Source of the DNA: Natronobacterium haloterrestre
GTDB taxonomy: Archaea; Halobacteriota; Halobacteria; Halobacteriales; Natrialbaceae
Direction: 5' to 3'
Length of the DNA stretch: 64,000 nt
NCBI RefSeq assembly: GCF_900112205.1
Contig: NZ_FOKW01000008.1
Coordinates: 124,001-188,000 of the forward strand
The position numbers were made by a program, and so were the translations under genes. The notes under the pieces are model-generated. The model worked only from the letters and a program-made list of their open reading frames with translations, was not told the DNA's origin and ran no database searches. This document shows, one piece after another, positions 23,799-34,470 of this stretch (within the stretch, counting starts at the first letter, position 1; each line of letters opens with the position of its first letter).

Positions 23799-24663
23799 GA
23801 TTGTCGAACCCCTCCGTCGTGTGAAAGACGCCGTCGTGAACTACGAGCGCCTCGAGGCCGGACCAGGCGGACGCGAGGTCGAGGGCGTCAGACAGCGGCA
23901 TGGCCGCGAGGGCCGTCGCGAGCGCATCGGCCTCGGTGCAGTCGCGCTCTGCGACCACCGTCACCGTCTCGTGTCGAGCGCCGATGTCTCCCCGCGTCGG
24001 ATCGTAGACGTGATCGACGCCCCCACGACGACGACGGTAGCCGCCGGACGTGGCGACGTACCAGTCCGTCTCGAGTACCCGGAGCGGGCGCGCGTCGCCG
24101 TAGGGACTCTCGACGGCGACCGGCCCCGTGGGCGGCGTCATGTCGCCACCGCCGGAGACGAATCCCTGGCGGCCGAGTCCCGACAGCGCGGCTGCCGCCC
24201 GATCGACCACGTACCCCTTCGCGAGGCCGTTCAGATCGAGCGCCGTCCCCTCGACGACGGTGACCCGATCGCCGTCGACCTCGATCGTGCCGTCGTCGAA
24301 CCGCGCCGGCGGGGACTCGCAGTTCCCCCGGAGGTACGCCTTCAAGTCGTGTTCGAGCCGTCCCTGTCGTACGTCGAAGACCCCGTCGGTCCGCTCGTGG
24401 TACTCGAGCCCCCGCCGGACCAACCTGGCGACGTGTTCGTTCTCGGCGCGACCCGTCCGGTTTAACTTCGAGACCGCGCTGTCCGGATCGAACGCGTTCA
24501 GTTCGCGTTCGAGGGACTGGGCGATCCGCCGGGCCCGAGCGGCCGTCGCGTTGGCCCGGTAGCCGGTTGCGTGGACGACGAAGTCGGTGTCACAGCACCG
24601 AAACGACAGCCGGGCATCACCCAGACGTGCGGACATCCCGGTGAGCGTATCCGTCAGACCCAT
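23788..24663 (-). CDS. apbE: FAD:protein FMN transferase (ApbE family)
   Basis: The 291-residue protein shows ApbE family landmarks: FDPDSAVSKLNR near the N terminus, DLNGLAKGYVVDRA in the centre, the glycine turn SGGGDM, HVYDPTRG and the metal-site segment EADALATALAAM. ApbE transfers FMN from FAD to a Thr/Ser of target redox proteins. No signal peptide or lipobox is apparent, unlike many bacterial homologues. The ATG at 24663 lies two bases after the stop of the acidic repeat gene; a TTG six bases earlier is possible. The next two genes encode its best candidate partners. Confidence 0.87.
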   Translation of the reverse strand: MGLTDTLTGMSARLGDARLSFRCCDTDFVVHATGYRANATAARARRIAQSLERELNAFDPDSAVSKLNRTGRAENEHVARLVRRGLEYHERTDGVFDVRQGRLEHDLKAYLRGNCESPPARFDDGTIEVDGDRVTVVEGTALDLNGLAKGYVVDRAAAALSGLGRQGFVSGGGDMTPPTGPVAVESPYGDARPLRVLETDWYVATSGGYRRRRGGVDHVYDPTRGDIGARHETVTVVAERDCTEADALATALAAMPLSDALDLASAWSGLEALVVHDGVFHTTEGFDNHVA

Positions 24664-24665
24664 TG

Positions 24666-25295
24666 TCAATCCTCGTACCGGTCGTCGTCGTACTCCTCGT
24701 ATTCGTCCTCGTACCGGTCGTCGTCGTACCCCTCGTATTCGTCCTCGTACCGGTCGTCGTCGTACCCCTCGTATTCGTCCTCGTACCGGTCGTCGTCGTA
24801 CCCCTCGTATTCGTCCTCGTACCGGTCGTCGTCGTACCCCTCGTATTCGTCCTCGTACCGGTCGTCGTCGTACCCCTCGTATTCGTCCTCGTACCGGTCG
24901 TCGTCGTACCCCTCGTATTCGTCCTCGTACCGGTCGTCGTCGTACCCCTCGTATTCGTCCTCGTACCGGTCGTCGTCGTACTCCTCGTATTCGCCGTATT
25001 CCTGGTATTCGGCATACTCCTCGTATTCGTCCTCGTATCGGTCGTCGTCGTACCCCTCGTACTCGTCTTCGTACCGATCGTCGTACTCCTCGTATTCGCC
25101 GTATTCCTGATATTCGACATACTCCCCGTACTCATCGTACTCGTCGTGGTCACCGAGTTCGGTTACGGACGCCCCATCGTCGTCTCCCGCGAGGTCGAAG
25201 CCGGGGGCAGCAAGCCCGATCGCGACGCCGGTGGTCAAGACGGCACCGATGAGCGTGAACGCCACGAGCCTGTTGGTCGGTACTGGAATGCGCAT
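24666..25295 (-). CDS. Exported acidic Asp/Glu/Tyr repeat protein
   Basis: The 209-residue protein starts with a Sec-like signal or anchor (residues 9-30). A short linker containing DDDGASVTELG follows, then nearly 160 residues made of Tyr, Asp, Glu and Gly repeats with unit EYEGYDDDRYED. The C-terminal part has nine near-identical 12-residue units; the N-terminal part is diverged (EYGEYEEY, EYQEYGEY). The minus-strand frame is chosen because it has a signal sequence, a composition fitting haloarchaeal secreted proteins and a stop two bases before apbE. It heads the ApbE/bis-heme operon. Metal binding, a tyrosine-rich redox role or an extracellular polyelectrolyte are possible; function unknown. 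Confidence 0.7.
   Translation of the reverse strand: MRIPVPTNRLVAFTLIGAVLTTGVAIGLAAPGFDLAGDDDGASVTELGDHDEYDEYGEYVEYQEYGEYEEYDDRYEDEYEGYDDDRYEDEYEEYAEYQEYGEYEEYDDDRYEDEYEGYDDDRYEDEYEGYDDDRYEDEYEGYDDDRYEDEYEGYDDDRYEDEYEGYDDDRYEDEYEGYDDDRYEDEYEGYDDDRYEDEYEEYDDDRYED
24670..25098. repeat. 36-bp in-frame tandem repeat array (nine near-identical copies plus diverged copies)
   Basis: Units begin every 36 bases from 24670 to 24993 and differ at one position. Three or four diverged units follow up to about 25098, one shortened to 33 bases. The period is a multiple of three and free of stops, so several other frames stay open over the array. High identity between units points to recent expansion, and copy number may vary between strains or be misassembled. 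Confidence 0.9.
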
Positions 25296-29305: not shown

Positions 29306-30472
29306 TCAGATCGCGCAGCCGACCTCGCGGTAGAGCCAGTGGGTCATCACGTAGACGCCCAGCACGATCCCCACGGCCGCGATGAACGAGTGGACCGACA
29401 GCGAGGCGATCCCGGAGTAGATGTTGCCGATGTTACAGCCCGGCGCGAGCCGGGAGCCAGCACCCATCAGGAAGCCGCCGACGACGGCGTTCGGGAGCCG
29501 CTGGAGCTTCGGGGTCCGCACGGAGAAGTCGCCGCTCCAGGCGGCGGCGATCCCCGCGCCGACGATGACCATCGCGATCATGATCATGTCGACGGTAACG
29601 GTGACGCCTTCGCCGGCAAAGAGGATCGACCCCCAGTACTCGTAGGAGCTCGCGTCGACGCCGACCTGCTGGAGCAGGTAGCCCGTCCAGCGCGCTTCGG
29701 GACCCGTGACGCCGACGATCGACACCTGCGAGAACCAGAGGACCGCGACGGCGGTGATCCCGAGCGCGGCCGTCCGCGGGTCCCAGGGTCGCTTCGAGGC
29801 GGCTATCGGGTCGTCGATCTCGCGGAAGCCCCGGACGTACGAGCGCGTCCCCTCGAGGAGTCGCCGGGTTCCGACGACGGGCGTCGCGAGGACGACCGGA
29901 CGGAACTCGGCGGCCTGTTCCCGTCCAGTCCCGGTCTCGCCGGCTTCGCGGCCGACGACGGTGACGTACGCGAGGCCGATCAGCGCCGAGGCCAGCAGCG
30001 CCACGAGCGGCGCGGGCAGCGAGGACGCCTCGAAGAGCGTGACGCCCTCGCCGAAGGTCAGCGGCGCGAAGTACGTCGACTGCAGCGTCGGGAAGGCGAC
30101 GGAGAAGGCCGCGTAGCCGACGCCCATGAACAGCAGGGTCAGCCAGAAGTGCAAGTACCCCTGGCCGGCCCGGTAGAGGGTCCCGCTCGCACAGCCACCG
30201 GCGTAGGTCATCCCGACGCCGAAGACGAAGCCGCCGACAAGCCCCGTCAGCCCCCAGTCGGGGGTCCAGAACCCCTGGTAGTAGCCGAGCTGGTAGAGCA
30301 CGCTCCAGCCCAGCATCGTCGATACGACCGCGACGAGGACGCCCTTGGTAACTCGGGTGTCCTTGAACGCGAACAGGTCGCGGAACGCGTGGACGAAACA
30401 GAACCGGCCCTTCTGGAGGAAGACGCCCAGTCCGAGGCCGACCACCGCCGCGACGAGCAGCGTCGATGTCAT
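29306..30472 (-). CDS. YeeE/YedE (TsuA-like) sulfur-compound transporter
   Basis: The 388-residue protein has about nine to ten membrane spans. The conserved cysteines of thiosulfate channels of the TsuA family lie in GRFCFVHAFRD, GGCASGTLYRAG and RLAPGCNIGN. These proteins import thiosulfate or related sulfur species by relay between Cys residues. ATG at 30472 is preferred; a GTG immediately precedes it. It is near the JAMM/UbaA/CysO-like/MetB genes, which fits sulfur assimilation, but co-regulation is not shown. Confidence 0.83.
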   Translation of the reverse strand: MTSTLLVAAVVGLGLGVFLQKGRFCFVHAFRDLFAFKDTRVTKGVLVAVVSTMLGWSVLYQLGYYQGFWTPDWGLTGLVGGFVFGVGMTYAGGCASGTLYRAGQGYLHFWLTLLFMGVGYAAFSVAFPTLQSTYFAPLTFGEGVTLFEASSLPAPLVALLASALIGLAYVTVVGREAGETGTGREQAAEFRPVVLATPVVGTRRLLEGTRSYVRGFREIDDPIAASKRPWDPRTAALGITAVAVLWFSQVSIVGVTGPEARWTGYLLQQVGVDASSYEYWGSILFAGEGVTVTVDMIMIAMVIVGAGIAAAWSGDFSVRTPKLQRLPNAVVGGFLMGAGSRLAPGCNIGNIYSGIASLSVHSFIAAVGIVLGVYVMTHWLYREVGCAI

Positions 30473-30729
30473 CACCGGTCGTTCTCACTGCCCCTCCTAA
30501 ACCGCCCCCGTTACGGGAACCTCTGCACGGATCGATGACGGCCCTCAGGCCGAGATATGGCGCTTCGGTGACCGATACGGCCGACTCAGCCCGATATCCC
30601 TCGGATCGGCGCTCTGAGGCCCCGGCAACACTGGCTTCTATCTACGATCGTCTCCGTCGCGACCTGTCCGGGCCGATTTCGCCGATCCGGAGTGGATAGC
30701 TTAAGGGGCTGTAACCCCCAGCCACGCGC

Positions 30730-31173
30730 ATGATCGAACTGTTGCGTTCGGCGTACGACGAGATCGTCTACCAGGCCTACGACGGCGACGAGCGGGAGGT
30801 CTGTGGGATCCTCGCCGGCGAGTACGACCCGGACCACACCGTCGTCACCGACGCCTATCCGGCCGAGAACGTCGCCGACAACCCCGAGATCCGGTACGCG
30901 ATCGATCCCGAGGAACAGTTCGAGATCACCGAACGGATCGAGGAGGAAGGCCTCGAGGTCGCGGGCTTCTACCACTCCCACCCGGCGGGGCCGGCCGAAC
31001 CCAGCGAGACGGACGCGGCGCGGGCGACGTGGCCCGATTTCTCGTACGTCATCGTCGCGCTCGACGGCTACCCGTTCGTCGGCTCGTGGCGCTGGCGCGA
31101 CGAAGAAGAGCGGTTCGACGGTGAGCGGGTGCGCGTGGTCTCGAGCCGGAGCGACGGGGACGACTCCCGTTAG
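30730..31173 (+). CDS. JAMM/MPN+ metalloprotease (desampylase or Mec/HcyD-like)
   Basis: The 147-residue protein is one JAMM domain with catalytic Glu23 (REVCGIL) and zinc ligands His82, His84 and Asp95 in the motif HSHPAGPAEPSETD. In haloarchaea, relatives remove SAMP proteins from targets. In bacteria, relatives (Mec+, QbsD, HcyD) trim the tail of sulfur-carrier proteins or release the amino acid product. Neighbours encode the E1-like enzyme and a ubiquitin-fold protein with two residues after Gly-Gly, so precursor processing is likely. It converges on ubaA. Confidence 0.87.
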   Translation: MIELLRSAYDEIVYQAYDGDEREVCGILAGEYDPDHTVVTDAYPAENVADNPEIRYAIDPEEQFEITERIEEEGLEVAGFYHSHPAGPAEPSETDAARATWPDFSYVIVALDGYPFVGSWRWRDEEERFDGERVRVVSSRSDGDDSR

Positions 31174-31199: not shown

Positions 31200-32057
31200 T
31201 CAGTCGTCACTGGCTTCGATCTCCGGCTCCTCCGCCGTCCCGTCGATCGAACACGATGCCGTGTACTCGACGTCGTGGACCGAGTCGATCGCGGGATCGT
31301 CGCCACAGACCGGACAGTCGTCTTTCTTGGTGATCTCGACGGTGTCGAACTCCATGTTCAGGGCGTCGTAGAAGACCATCCGGCCGTCGAGGAGGTCGCC
31401 CTTGTCGAGCAGGAACTTCACGGCCTCGGTGGCCTGGATACAGCCGACGGTGCCGGGGAGGACGCCCAGCACGCCAGCAGTCGCGCAGTTGGGGACCATC
31501 CCCGCCGGCGGGGCTTCGGGGAACATACAGCGGTAACACGGCGAGTCCTCGCCGCCGGCGAAGGTCGTGATCTGGCCCTCGAACTTGAAGATCGAGCCGT
31601 GGGAGAAGGGGACGCCGGCGAGGGTACAGGCGTCGTTGACGAGATAGCGGGTCTCGAAGTTGTCAGCGCCGTCGATCACGAAGTCGTAGCCCTCGATCAG
31701 GTCCTCGACGTTGTCGGGCGAGACGCGGAGTTCGTGTTTCTCGACGTCGACGTCGGGGTTGATCGTCTCGACGTACTCCGCGGCGCTGTCGACCTTCTTG
31801 CGACCTACGTCGTCGTCGCCGTGGATGACCTGCCGCTGGAGGTTCGAGAGTTCGACCTCGTCGTCGTCGGCGATGCCGATCGTTCCGACCCCCGCGGCCG
31901 CGAGGTACTGGATGATCGGGGACCCGAGTCCGCCCGCGCCGATCACCAGCACGCGCGAGTCCAGTAGATCGCTCTGTCCCTCCGGGCCGACCTCGTCCAT
32001 GATGATGTGTCTCGAGTACCGGTCCAGTTGCGTCGGCGAGAGATCCAGGTCGCTCAT
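31200..32057 (-). CDS. ubaA: E1-like adenylating enzyme UbaA (MoeB/ThiF family)
   Basis: The 285-residue protein has the Rossmann ATP site VLVIGAGGLGSPI (residues 37-49), the Arg finger region LSNLQRQVIHG, the zinc CxxC pairs CYRC and CPVC, and a candidate catalytic Cys191 in PNCATAGVLG. It adenylates the C-terminal Gly of ubiquitin-fold proteins and enables thiocarboxylate formation, serving sampylation, molybdopterin and tRNA thiolation in haloarchaea. ATG at 32057 is chosen by homology. It is divergent from the CysO-like gene with a 125-base promoter region. Confidence 0.9.
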   Translation of the reverse strand: MSDLDLSPTQLDRYSRHIIMDEVGPEGQSDLLDSRVLVIGAGGLGSPIIQYLAAAGVGTIGIADDDEVELSNLQRQVIHGDDDVGRKKVDSAAEYVETINPDVDVEKHELRVSPDNVEDLIEGYDFVIDGADNFETRYLVNDACTLAGVPFSHGSIFKFEGQITTFAGGEDSPCYRCMFPEAPPAGMVPNCATAGVLGVLPGTVGCIQATEAVKFLLDKGDLLDGRMVFYDALNMEFDTVEITKKDDCPVCGDDPAIDSVHDVEYTASCSIDGTAEEPEIEASDD

Positions 32058-32182: not shown

Positions 32183-32449
32183 ATGCCAACCATCAAGGTA
32201 CCAGCCGTACTGAGCGGCGGCGGCGCCTCCTCGCGCGTCGAGGTCGAGGGGGAGACGCTCCGCGAGGCGTTCGACGCCCACGCCGCAGAACACGGCGAGT
32301 CCCTGCGCGACAGCGTGATCGAGGACGGCGAGATCAAGGAGTTCATCAACGTCTACGTCGACGGCGACGAGGTCTCGGACCTCGAGGTCCCCGTCGATGA
32401 AGGGTCCCAGATCCGGGTCATTCCGGCGGCCAGCGGCGGCGCGCGGTAG
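32183..32449 (+). CDS. Ubiquitin-fold sulfur carrier (CysO/MoaD/SAMP-like) ending Gly-Gly-Ala-Arg
   Basis: The 88-residue protein has a beta-grasp pattern and resembles CysO, notably in FINVYVDGDEV and IRVIPAASGG near the C terminus. Gly85-Gly86 are followed by Ala87-Arg88, so the diglycine is masked until two residues are removed. Mycobacterial CysO and haloarchaeal SAMPs end in GG, whereas QbsE and HcyS have extra residues cut by a JAMM protease. With the nearby JAMM and E1-like genes this points to a processed thiocarboxylate carrier. Its use as protein modifier or in cysteine/homocysteine synthesis is open. Confidence 0.83.
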   Translation: MPTIKVPAVLSGGGASSRVEVEGETLREAFDAHAAEHGESLRDSVIEDGEIKEFINVYVDGDEVSDLEVPVDEGSQIRVIPAASGGAR

Positions 32450-32461
32450 GCCCCCGGGGTC

Positions 32462-33151
32462 TCACTTCTCGCGTAGTTCACGGTGTAGCTCCTCGAGGCG
32501 CTCGGTTCCCGCCTCGGCGTAGCCGCCGTGGTAGCAGACCACGCCGTCGACCTCGAGACCGGCCAGGTCGCCGACCGATTCGATCGCGCGATCCATGTCC
32601 GGCGTGAACTCCGGTTTGGGTCCCTCGAGCGTCTCCGTGCCGTCCGCGACGAGCGCGTCGCCGGCGAGCAACACCCCGCTCTCGGGGAAGTAAAGCGACA
32701 CGTGCCCGGGCGCGTGGCCGGGCGTCTCGACGACTTCCATCGGGCCGGCGATCGTCGGAATCCGGACGCCGCCGGCGAGTTCCAGGTCGACCTCGACCGG
32801 CGGGTAGCGGTCGCCGTCGCCCCCGAGAGGGTCGCGTTCGCCGGTCAGGAACGGCGCTTCCTCGCGGTGGGTCGCGACGACCGCGTCGGTGTGCTCGAGC
32901 AGGGCCGCGAGTCCGCCCGCGTGGTCGGCGTCGTGGTGGGTGACGACGACCAGCCAGACGTCCGCGAGTTCGTGGCCGAGGCTCCGGACGTGCGTTCGCA
33001 ACGACTCGAGGCTCCCCTCGGGGCCGGCGTCGATCAGGACGAGGCCGCGCTCGGTTTCGACCAGCGCGGGCGTGACGGTTAGCTCGCGGCCGCCGTGGTC
33101 GACCGCGATCGGGAGCGCGTGCAGTCCGACGTCGTCCTCCTGTCGTGACAT
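32462..33151 (-). CDS. Metallo-beta-lactamase-fold hydrolase
   Basis: The 229-residue protein has the MBL metal motif THHDADHAGG near residue 72, followed by ETPGHAPGHVSLYF and the bridging Asp in LLAGDALVADG, then a late His in VVCYHGGYA. It resembles glyoxalase II or persulfide dioxygenase-like members, which handle thioesters or sulfane sulfur; the exact substrate is unknown. It converges on the CysO-like gene and is 59 bases downstream of the metB-like gene on the same strand, so it may belong to the same transcript. Confidence 0.85.
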   Translation of the reverse strand: MSRQEDDVGLHALPIAVDHGGRELTVTPALVETERGLVLIDAGPEGSLESLRTHVRSLGHELADVWLVVVTHHDADHAGGLAALLEHTDAVVATHREEAPFLTGERDPLGGDGDRYPPVEVDLELAGGVRIPTIAGPMEVVETPGHAPGHVSLYFPESGVLLAGDALVADGTETLEGPKPEFTPDMDRAIESVGDLAGLEVDGVVCYHGGYAEAGTERLEELHRELREK

Positions 33152-33210: not shown

Positions 33211-34389
33211 TCACTCGAGTCCGGCCTCGAAAGCCCGCTCGAGGTCGGCGATCAGGTCGTCGACGTGCTCGATCCCCACCGAGACGCGGATCAGGCCGTC
33301 CGTCAGGCCGGCCTCGATGCGCTCCTCGCGGGGGATCGCGGCGTGGGTCATCGGCGCGGGCTGTTCGATCAGGCTCTCGACGCCGCCCAGGCTCTCCGCG
33401 AGGGTGAACACCTCCGTCGAGGAGACGACCTCGCTCGCCTCCTCCATGCTCGCGTCGAGTTCGAAACTCAGCATGCCGCCGAAGTCGTCCATCTGCTCGC
33501 GGGCGATCTCGTGGCCGGGATGGGACTCGAGGCCGGGGTAGTAGACGCGGTCGACCTCGGGGCGGTCCTGGAGCCAGTCCGCGATCTTGCGGGCGTTCTC
33601 GCAGTGTCGGTCCATGCGGACGGGCAGCGTCTTCGTCCCGCGGAGAACGAGGAACGACTCGAAGGGGCCGGGCGTCGCGCCGACGGAGTTCTGGTAGAAC
33701 CCGAACTCCTCGTCGAGGTCCTCGTCGTTCGTGAGGAGCGCGCCGCCGACGACGTCCGAGTGGCCGCCGAGGTACTTGGTCAGCGAGTGCGAGACGACGT
33801 CCGCGCCCAGGTCGAGCGGGTTCTGGAGGTACGGCGTCGCGAACGTGTTGTCGATCGCACAGAGGGCGTCGTGGTCGTGGGCGATCTCGGCCGCGCCCGC
33901 GATGTCGACGATCGACATGAGCGGGTTGGTCGGGGTCTCGAGCCAGAGCAGTTCCGTGTTCTCCCGGAACGCCGCCTCGATCGCGTCGAGGTCCGTCATG
34001 TCGACGAAGCTAAACTCGACGTCGTAGTCCTCGTAGACCTGCGTGAAGATGCGGTGGGTACCGCCGTAGACGTCGTTGCCGGTGACGACGTGATCGCCGG
34101 CCTCGAGCAGGTTGAGGACGGTGTTGATCGAGGCCATCCCCGAGGCGAAGGCGCGGCCGTACTCGGCGTTCTCGAGGGAAGCGAGGTTCTCCTCGAGGTC
34201 GGTTCGCGTGGGATTGCCGGTCCGGGAGTACTCGTAGCCGCGGTGGTCGCCGGGAGCGTCCTGCTCGTAGGTCGAGTTGGCGTGGATCGGCGTCATCAGC
34301 GCGCCGGTCTCCTCGTCGGGGTCCTGTCCCGCGTGGATCGATCGGGTCTCGATCCGATAGTCGGAACTGCTGTCGTGCTCGTCGCTCAT
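33211..34389 (-). CDS. metB: Cystathionine gamma-synthase-like PLP enzyme (Cys/Met metabolism family)
   Basis: The 392-residue protein has the family signature with the PLP Lys in SHSLTKYLGGHSDV, the phosphate-binding FASGMASI and the Tyr loop YEYSRTGNPTR. It likely catalyses gamma-replacement or beta-elimination in cystathionine/homocysteine metabolism. Length favours MetB/MetC over the longer MetY. Start 34389 follows homology; upstream frame codons are not conserved-looking. In Wolinella a related enzyme uses a thiocarboxylated carrier protein, and such a carrier is encoded nearby. A structured region lies 80-200 bases upstream. Confidence 0.85.
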   Translation of the reverse strand: MSDEHDSSSDYRIETRSIHAGQDPDEETGALMTPIHANSTYEQDAPGDHRGYEYSRTGNPTRTDLEENLASLENAEYGRAFASGMASINTVLNLLEAGDHVVTGNDVYGGTHRIFTQVYEDYDVEFSFVDMTDLDAIEAAFRENTELLWLETPTNPLMSIVDIAGAAEIAHDHDALCAIDNTFATPYLQNPLDLGADVVSHSLTKYLGGHSDVVGGALLTNDEDLDEEFGFYQNSVGATPGPFESFLVLRGTKTLPVRMDRHCENARKIADWLQDRPEVDRVYYPGLESHPGHEIAREQMDDFGGMLSFELDASMEEASEVVSSTEVFTLAESLGGVESLIEQPAPMTHAAIPREERIEAGLTDGLIRVSVGIEHVDDLIADLERAFEAGLE

Positions 34390-34470
34390 GGTCGCCACGA
34401 TGCGCGGCCGAAAGTTACGTCTGTCCATCCTCGTTCCGCCGTCGGAACCCCCGACGTCCCGGCCGCAAAA

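Follow-up and report, generated by a model that had tools for sequence, protein, structure and literature searches.

The small protein encoded at positions 32183-32449 of the window (the whole 64,000-nucleotide stretch of Natronobacterium haloterrestre DNA analysed here) is probably a CysO-type sulfur carrier that is made with a capped C-terminus, uncapped by a JAMM metalloprotease and employed in a proposed cysteine cycle. The open reading frame, on the plus strand, starts with ATG and specifies an 88-residue product whose C-terminus reads I-P-A-A-S-G85-G86-A87-R88-stop. The features of the locus are the following.

29306-30475, minus strand: YeeE/YedE-type transporter (Pfam Sulf_transp); 20 of the 38 named carrier loci have a relative in the stretch that was fetched
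30730-31173, plus strand: JAMM metalloprotease of the desampylase family (NF041370, 144.1 bits against a cut-off of 130; JAMM motif)
31200-32057, minus strand: UbaA-type E1 (NF047750, 480.3 bits against a cut-off of 450)
32183-32449, plus strand: gene for the CysO-like beta-grasp sulfur carrier, 88 aa (open reading frame, profile match, fold)
32435-32440, plus strand: codons of Gly85-Gly86, invariant in orthologue alignments of 18 and 22 rows
32441-32446, plus strand: two-residue cap Ala87-Arg88; in relatives R, SR, TRA, CSP, RR, Q, QA, QF, QSK, TGQ, G or none
32462-33151, minus strand: metallo-beta-lactamase-fold protein, sitting where many relatives have a CysM-like gene; a candidate member of the system at most
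33211-34428, minus strand: PLP enzyme of the cystathionine gamma-synthase type, whose gene is close to the carrier in genome G145 and, of the 38 named loci, in that of H. nitratireducens alone

Fold, family and tail of the carrier

By profile and by fold, the carrier is closest to CysO, the carrier of cysteine synthesis. It matches Pfam ThiS with 30.5 bits (cut-off 22.5), and the top PDB match of its profile is 4n6e_B, an entry titled as a BexX/CysO complex (E 3.4e-13). M. tuberculosis CysO (3dwg_C) is also matched, at E 4.7e-9, and the H. volcanii SAMP1 entries stand behind both CysO matches, at about 1e-6. Foldseek again ranked 4n6e_B and 3dwg_C as the top two. Identification of the carrier as SAMP1 itself was rejected, the SAMP1 model NF041918 giving 42.1 bits, below its NCBIfam cut-off of 60. 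The AlphaFold2 model, based on the window protein together with 21 of its relatives, has a mean pLDDT of 87.6, with residues 85-88 below 50; the C-terminal end is thus uncertain in the model and probably flexible.

The likeness to CysO extends from the beta-grasp fold to the company of genes for a cysteine synthase and a JAMM protease, found in the loci of relatives and, in the window genome, with the CysM-like gene about 80 kb away. However, Gly-Gly is the last pair of residues in the CysO chain of M. tuberculosis, whereas in the haloarchaeal carrier Ala-Arg is encoded behind it, and the protein is therefore termed here CysO-like and capped, rather than plain CysO. A short extension behind Gly-Gly, together with a nearby JAMM gene with an intact metal-binding motif, is also what characterizes carriers of the QbsE/PtmS2 kind, and the window has both. 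QbsE is the carrier partnered with QbsD.

The distribution of these tails was followed among orthologues. The search covered 392 genomes of the order, and in 27 of them, one being that of the window, an orthologue with at least 50% identity is present, the next matches lying at about 43% or less. A scan of named genomes gave 38 carrier loci, 21 of them titled Halorubrum and others including Halobellus, Haloquadratum MAGs, Halobiforma and Halorutilus. After removal of identical proteins, 47 distinct haloarchaeal orthologues were compared: 43 carry one to three residues behind Gly-Gly and four end at Gly-Gly. Specifically, the cap is R in 30 and Q in three, while AR, SR, RR, TRA, CSP, QA, QF, QSK, TGQ and G occur once each. 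Since this set was gathered by the PAASGG pattern, the constancy of Gly-Gly within it arises by construction; the diglycine is, however, also invariant in the 18- and 22-row alignments, whose loci were found by similarity or by conserved peptides. In other words, the cap sequence differs between genera and Gly-Gly does not. The masking of the diglycine by Ala87-Arg88, proposed by the first-pass annotation, is hence borne out and common in the family, with the qualification that four orthologues are uncapped. That annotation had also named two findings that would count against it. The first, random tails in homologues devoid of Gly-Gly, is seen by half, as the tails do vary and the diglycine stays.

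The second was a sequencing error in the last codons. That the cap stems from such an error, or from a wrong stop codon, was rejected and has a practically negligible probability: caps recur in 43 of the 47 distinct orthologues, those in other genomes keep Gly-Gly, and synonymous codon changes are found in the Halorubrum-type genes. In 26 genes of that type, parsimony assigns two amino-acid and four third-position changes to the cap codon, the average codon having 1.03 amino-acid changes; these counts do not settle whether the Arg cap is under selection. One genome, halophilic archaeon J07HX64 (L063), has two carriers about 4 kb apart, each beside its own UbaA match.

Genes inherited with the carrier

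Four other genes go together with that of the carrier, encoding a JAMM protease, a second copy of UbaA (E1), a rhodanese and a CysM-like cysteine synthase. Within stretches of up to 8 kb on each side of the 38 named carriers, several of which are cut short by the contig end, a JAMM gene was found in 34, UbaA in 33, the CysM-like gene in 29, a rhodanese in 29 and the YeeE-type transporter in 20. In the window's genus the CysM-like gene is not adjacent to the carrier and the metallo-beta-lactamase and cystathionine gamma-synthase genes are; in the window genome it lies on the same contig, with a rhodanese beside it.

The association holds at the level of whole genomes. A CysM-like protein of at least 70% identity is present in 22 of the 27 carrier genomes (in one as a 191-residue piece) and in 1 of the 365 others. 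At E<=1e-80 the figures are 26 of 27 and 23 of 365, the single carrier genome with no match at this threshold being G048, which is 64% complete. Two or more UbaA matches occur in 21 of 27 carrier genomes as against 12 of 365 others, some of the latter probably representing split genes; the window genome has two, of which the copy at 31200-32057 adjoins the carrier. A JAMM match is found in 27 of 27 carrier genomes and in 252 of 365 others (Fisher 1e-4, relatedness not removed). A scan of 45 stretches showed the E.CG.L ... HxHPx6SxxD signature of JAMM to be intact in 41, that of the window among them, and the window protein exceeds the cut-off of the haloarchaeal desampylase model in addition to bearing the motif. 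The first-pass annotation had called it the neighbouring gene; it is nearby, but ubaA sits between it and the carrier. The CysO/CysM context and the second E1 had escaped that annotation.

The CysM-like protein, a putative cysteine synthase, resembles cysteine synthases and scores below the NCBIfam cut-offs for cysKM, cysM and cysK. In genome G132 (L100), JAMM, CysM-like and rhodanese genes stand together with no carrier orthologue in the genome, a pattern that suggests loss or replacement of the carrier.

JAMM and the occurrence of capped C-termini

If JAMM removes caps, capped ubiquitin-like proteins (Ubls) should be rare where JAMM is lacking. The C-termini of other beta-grasp Ubls of the same order were read with this prediction in view, SAMP3-type proteins being defined by a VAGG or IAGG ending and JAMM-lacking genomes by having no match to the neighbouring-type JAMM at E<=1e-6; the latter were picked from the JAMM search results and do not form a random sample. 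SAMP3-type proteins are capped in 20 of 34 cases in JAMM-bearing genomes and in 1 of 19 in genomes with no JAMM match (P 1e-4); the 20 include two long extensions with a further Gly-Gly at their end (L211, L212). For SAMP1 and other Ubls the counts are 24 of 77 and 0 of 36, but the JAMM-bearing sample had been selected in part for likely caps; restricted to the first-listed SAMP1 loci, they are 2 of 17 and 0 of 7. In all, 1 of the 55 Ubls examined in genomes with no JAMM match is capped, and it comes from an incomplete assembly: this sole exception, G008 (81% complete, with no UbaA match), has an extended SAMP3-type protein.

Counted by genome, a capped Ubl other than the carrier occurs in 42 of 99 JAMM-bearing genomes, the remaining 57 having none among the Ubls examined, and in 1 of 50 with no JAMM match. 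When JAMM labels were shuffled within families, 4.9 capped JAMM-lacking genomes were expected against the one observed (P 0.003). The link between JAMM and caps is partly tied to lineage. The near-confinement of capped Ubls to the JAMM-bearing genomes examined supports, as far as sequences can tell, a role of JAMM as trimmer. The earlier statement that haloarchaeal SAMPs normally expose Gly-Gly consequently fits the genomes with no JAMM match and fails for most of the SAMP3-type proteins examined in those with one. Outside the order, all 15 more distant relatives of the carrier that were fetched end at Gly-Gly, and none of the seven neighbourhoods fetched for them holds a JAMM of the neighbouring type. 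The first tail controls, in which SAMP-type proteins were capped in 3 of 25 and then 4 of 27 cases (P 2.7e-11), were dropped as proof that the carrier is special, and their P values are not used, because the wider sample showed many capped SAMP-type proteins.

Some observations on the SAMP3-type proteins may be added. That of the window genome (G000:C15:284278-284565; L003, L145) is itself capped, with the ending VAGG-CDGR, and its best PDB match is 2m19, titled HVO 2177. Among its relatives, those that are capped carry 1 to 19 residues and the others none, apart from the two long extensions, L211 (G013) and L212 (G010), where the chain continues behind Gly-Gly into a stretch itself ending in Gly-Gly, possibly a fusion of two Ubl-like units. 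For 11 genomes that lack JAMM and belong to the same family as the window (f1), no match to the SAMP3-type query is stronger than E 2.2e-11; this family may have lost SAMP3 along with JAMM.

Trimming, if JAMM performs it, is not its only job. The four uncapped orthologues keep a JAMM gene in the same stretch (L103 for G011, L092/L104, L056 and L058), and a JAMM-UbaA pair occurs in a genome that has no carrier (L134), facts that indicate another conserved function and for which the nearness of JAMM was rejected as proof of trimming. By analogy with the systems described in excerpts of two papers, this function would be either the removal of SAMP conjugates (PMC4443979) or the freeing of cysteine in the manner of Mec (PMC3227635), and trimming may accompany it. 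The window genome encodes, moreover, a second Prok-JAB protein (G000:C12:211017-211328; L132) with an HSHPx6SxxD motif; it could share the trimming work, and the neighbouring JAMM is thus not necessarily the trimmer. The first-pass view of JAMM as the obvious processing enzyme is therefore narrowed: it is a likely trimmer, matched in every carrier genome and with caps nearly confined to genomes that bear it, and it has other work besides.

These same facts feed a different reading, namely that the JAMM near the carrier only frees cysteine or removes SAMP conjugates and that uncapping falls to a different enzyme, for instance a carboxypeptidase or the second JAMM protein. The uncapped orthologues with JAMM, the carrier-less pair, the second JAMM protein and the JAMM matches in so many genomes that have no carrier all speak in its favour; on the other hand, a general carboxypeptidase would not predict that merely one in 55 Ubls is capped where this JAMM is missing, and the reading appears rather unlikely. 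Other doubts concern what is carried. HcyS represents a homocysteine/methionine kind of sulfur carrier, and a protein of this kind might feed the cystathionine gamma-synthase-type enzyme, whose gene lies just past the metallo-beta-lactamase gene in the window and likewise in G145; in H. nitratireducens about 3 kb separate it from the carrier. Yet one of the 38 named loci has this gene close to the carrier, as against 29 that have the CysM-like gene, which is co-inherited even where it is not adjacent. The cystathionine gamma-synthase was set aside as partner, being near the carrier only in the window's genus, and a HcyS-like role is very unlikely.

Alternatively, the carrier might modify proteins in the manner of a SAMP and have an E1 of its own, in which case the cysteine genes would be incidental. 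UbaA and HvJAMM1 are indeed the enzymes of sampylation and desampylation in Haloferax volcanii, whose SAMP1 serves cofactor synthesis as well as protein modification (PMC4443979, in the part drawn on here). The low score with the SAMP1 model, the rank of CysO as nearest structure by both profile and fold, and the tight co-inheritance with a cysteine-synthase-like gene weigh against such a modifier, which we regard as distinctly unlikely.

A proposed cysteine cycle and known systems

For the capped CysO-type carrier, the sequence, its conservation, the gene association, the family assignments and the association of JAMM with caps are observed, and from them we infer every chemical step of the cycle. 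JAMM would cut after Gly86 and release Ala-Arg; Gly86 would then be adenylated by the carrier-linked UbaA, and a rhodanese-type protein would give the sulfur for a thiocarboxylate. The co-inherited CysM-like cysteine synthase would use this thiocarboxylate to build cysteine on the carrier, from which the same JAMM would free it, as Mec does in mycobacteria. Since cleavage behind Gly-Gly is required of JAMM in any case, additional residues there would be of little cost, which would explain both the variable caps and those on other Ubls of the same cells.

A broader and tentative possibility, to which we give somewhat less than even credence, is that one haloarchaeal JAMM is a general maturation enzyme of Ubls, whose presence frees C-termini to drift, so that capped Ubls exist only where JAMM does, and which in the CysO-like system acts twice per carrier, uncapping it once and then freeing cysteine at every turn. 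If this were true, desampylation would be a by-product or a partner of a sulfur-assimilation cycle. The association between caps and JAMM is more interesting than the single protein. It amounts to a simple rule, that hidden Gly-Gly ends go with JAMM, which hints at how precursor forms of Ubls arise and persist and touches on why eukaryotic ubiquitin is made as a precursor. The locus, for its part, points to a possibly complete thiocarboxylate-based gene set for cysteine in haloarchaea, with its own E1.

The nearest known system, by fold and profile of the carrier, is the mycobacterial CysO/CysM/Mec+ cysteine pathway (PMC3227635, as excerpted). E1-type activation, sulfur transfer, a cysteine synthase and a cysteine-freeing protease are common to both, being predicted from genes in the haloarchaeal case; unlike in mycobacteria, E1 and rhodanese are separate proteins. 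Capped carriers with JAMM enzymes are already published, in bacteria and in one archaeon (PMC6006322 and PMC6043591, again in excerpt). In bacteria, PtmS2 (cap MV) and PtmS3 (cap C) work with the JAMM protein PtmS1, whose gene is clustered with that of PtmS2, and QbsD has the like role; capped carriers are described as typically needing a protease (PMC6006322). The one or two residues behind Gly-Gly in PtmS2 and PtmS3 recall the haloarchaeal carrier, but the Ptm and Qbs carriers serve thio-natural-product pathways, while the present one is archaeal and tied to a cysteine-synthase-like gene. In Caldiarchaeum, the CsUb precursor is cut by CsRpn11, the cut after Gly-Gly having been measured by mass, and CsSAMP precursors are reported to be cut by CsJAMM; the SAMP and CsJAMM genes bear the consecutive numbers Csub_C0702 and Csub_C0703 (PMC6043591). 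These are likewise archaeal Ubl precursors with JAMM enzymes, in a different archaeal group, and the passages of that paper drawn on here describe no cysteine-synthase set with them. In the titles and abstract openings returned by a literature search that covered few subscription papers, no capped CysO-like set in haloarchaea was named.

The SAMP1/SAMP3-UbaA-HvJAMM1 system of H. volcanii employs, by NCBIfam, the same E1 and desampylase families as the window, and HvJAMM1 cuts a linear SAMP1-MoaE fusion exactly after Gly-Gly (PMC4443979, in part). The window differs from it in a carrier that scores below the SAMP1 cut-off, a second E1 copy and the cysteine context.

Elsewhere in the window, a long VVVVPLVFVLVP-like unit recurs within the reading frame at positions 24663-25100, a pattern that probably reflects an in-frame reading of tandemly repeated DNA.
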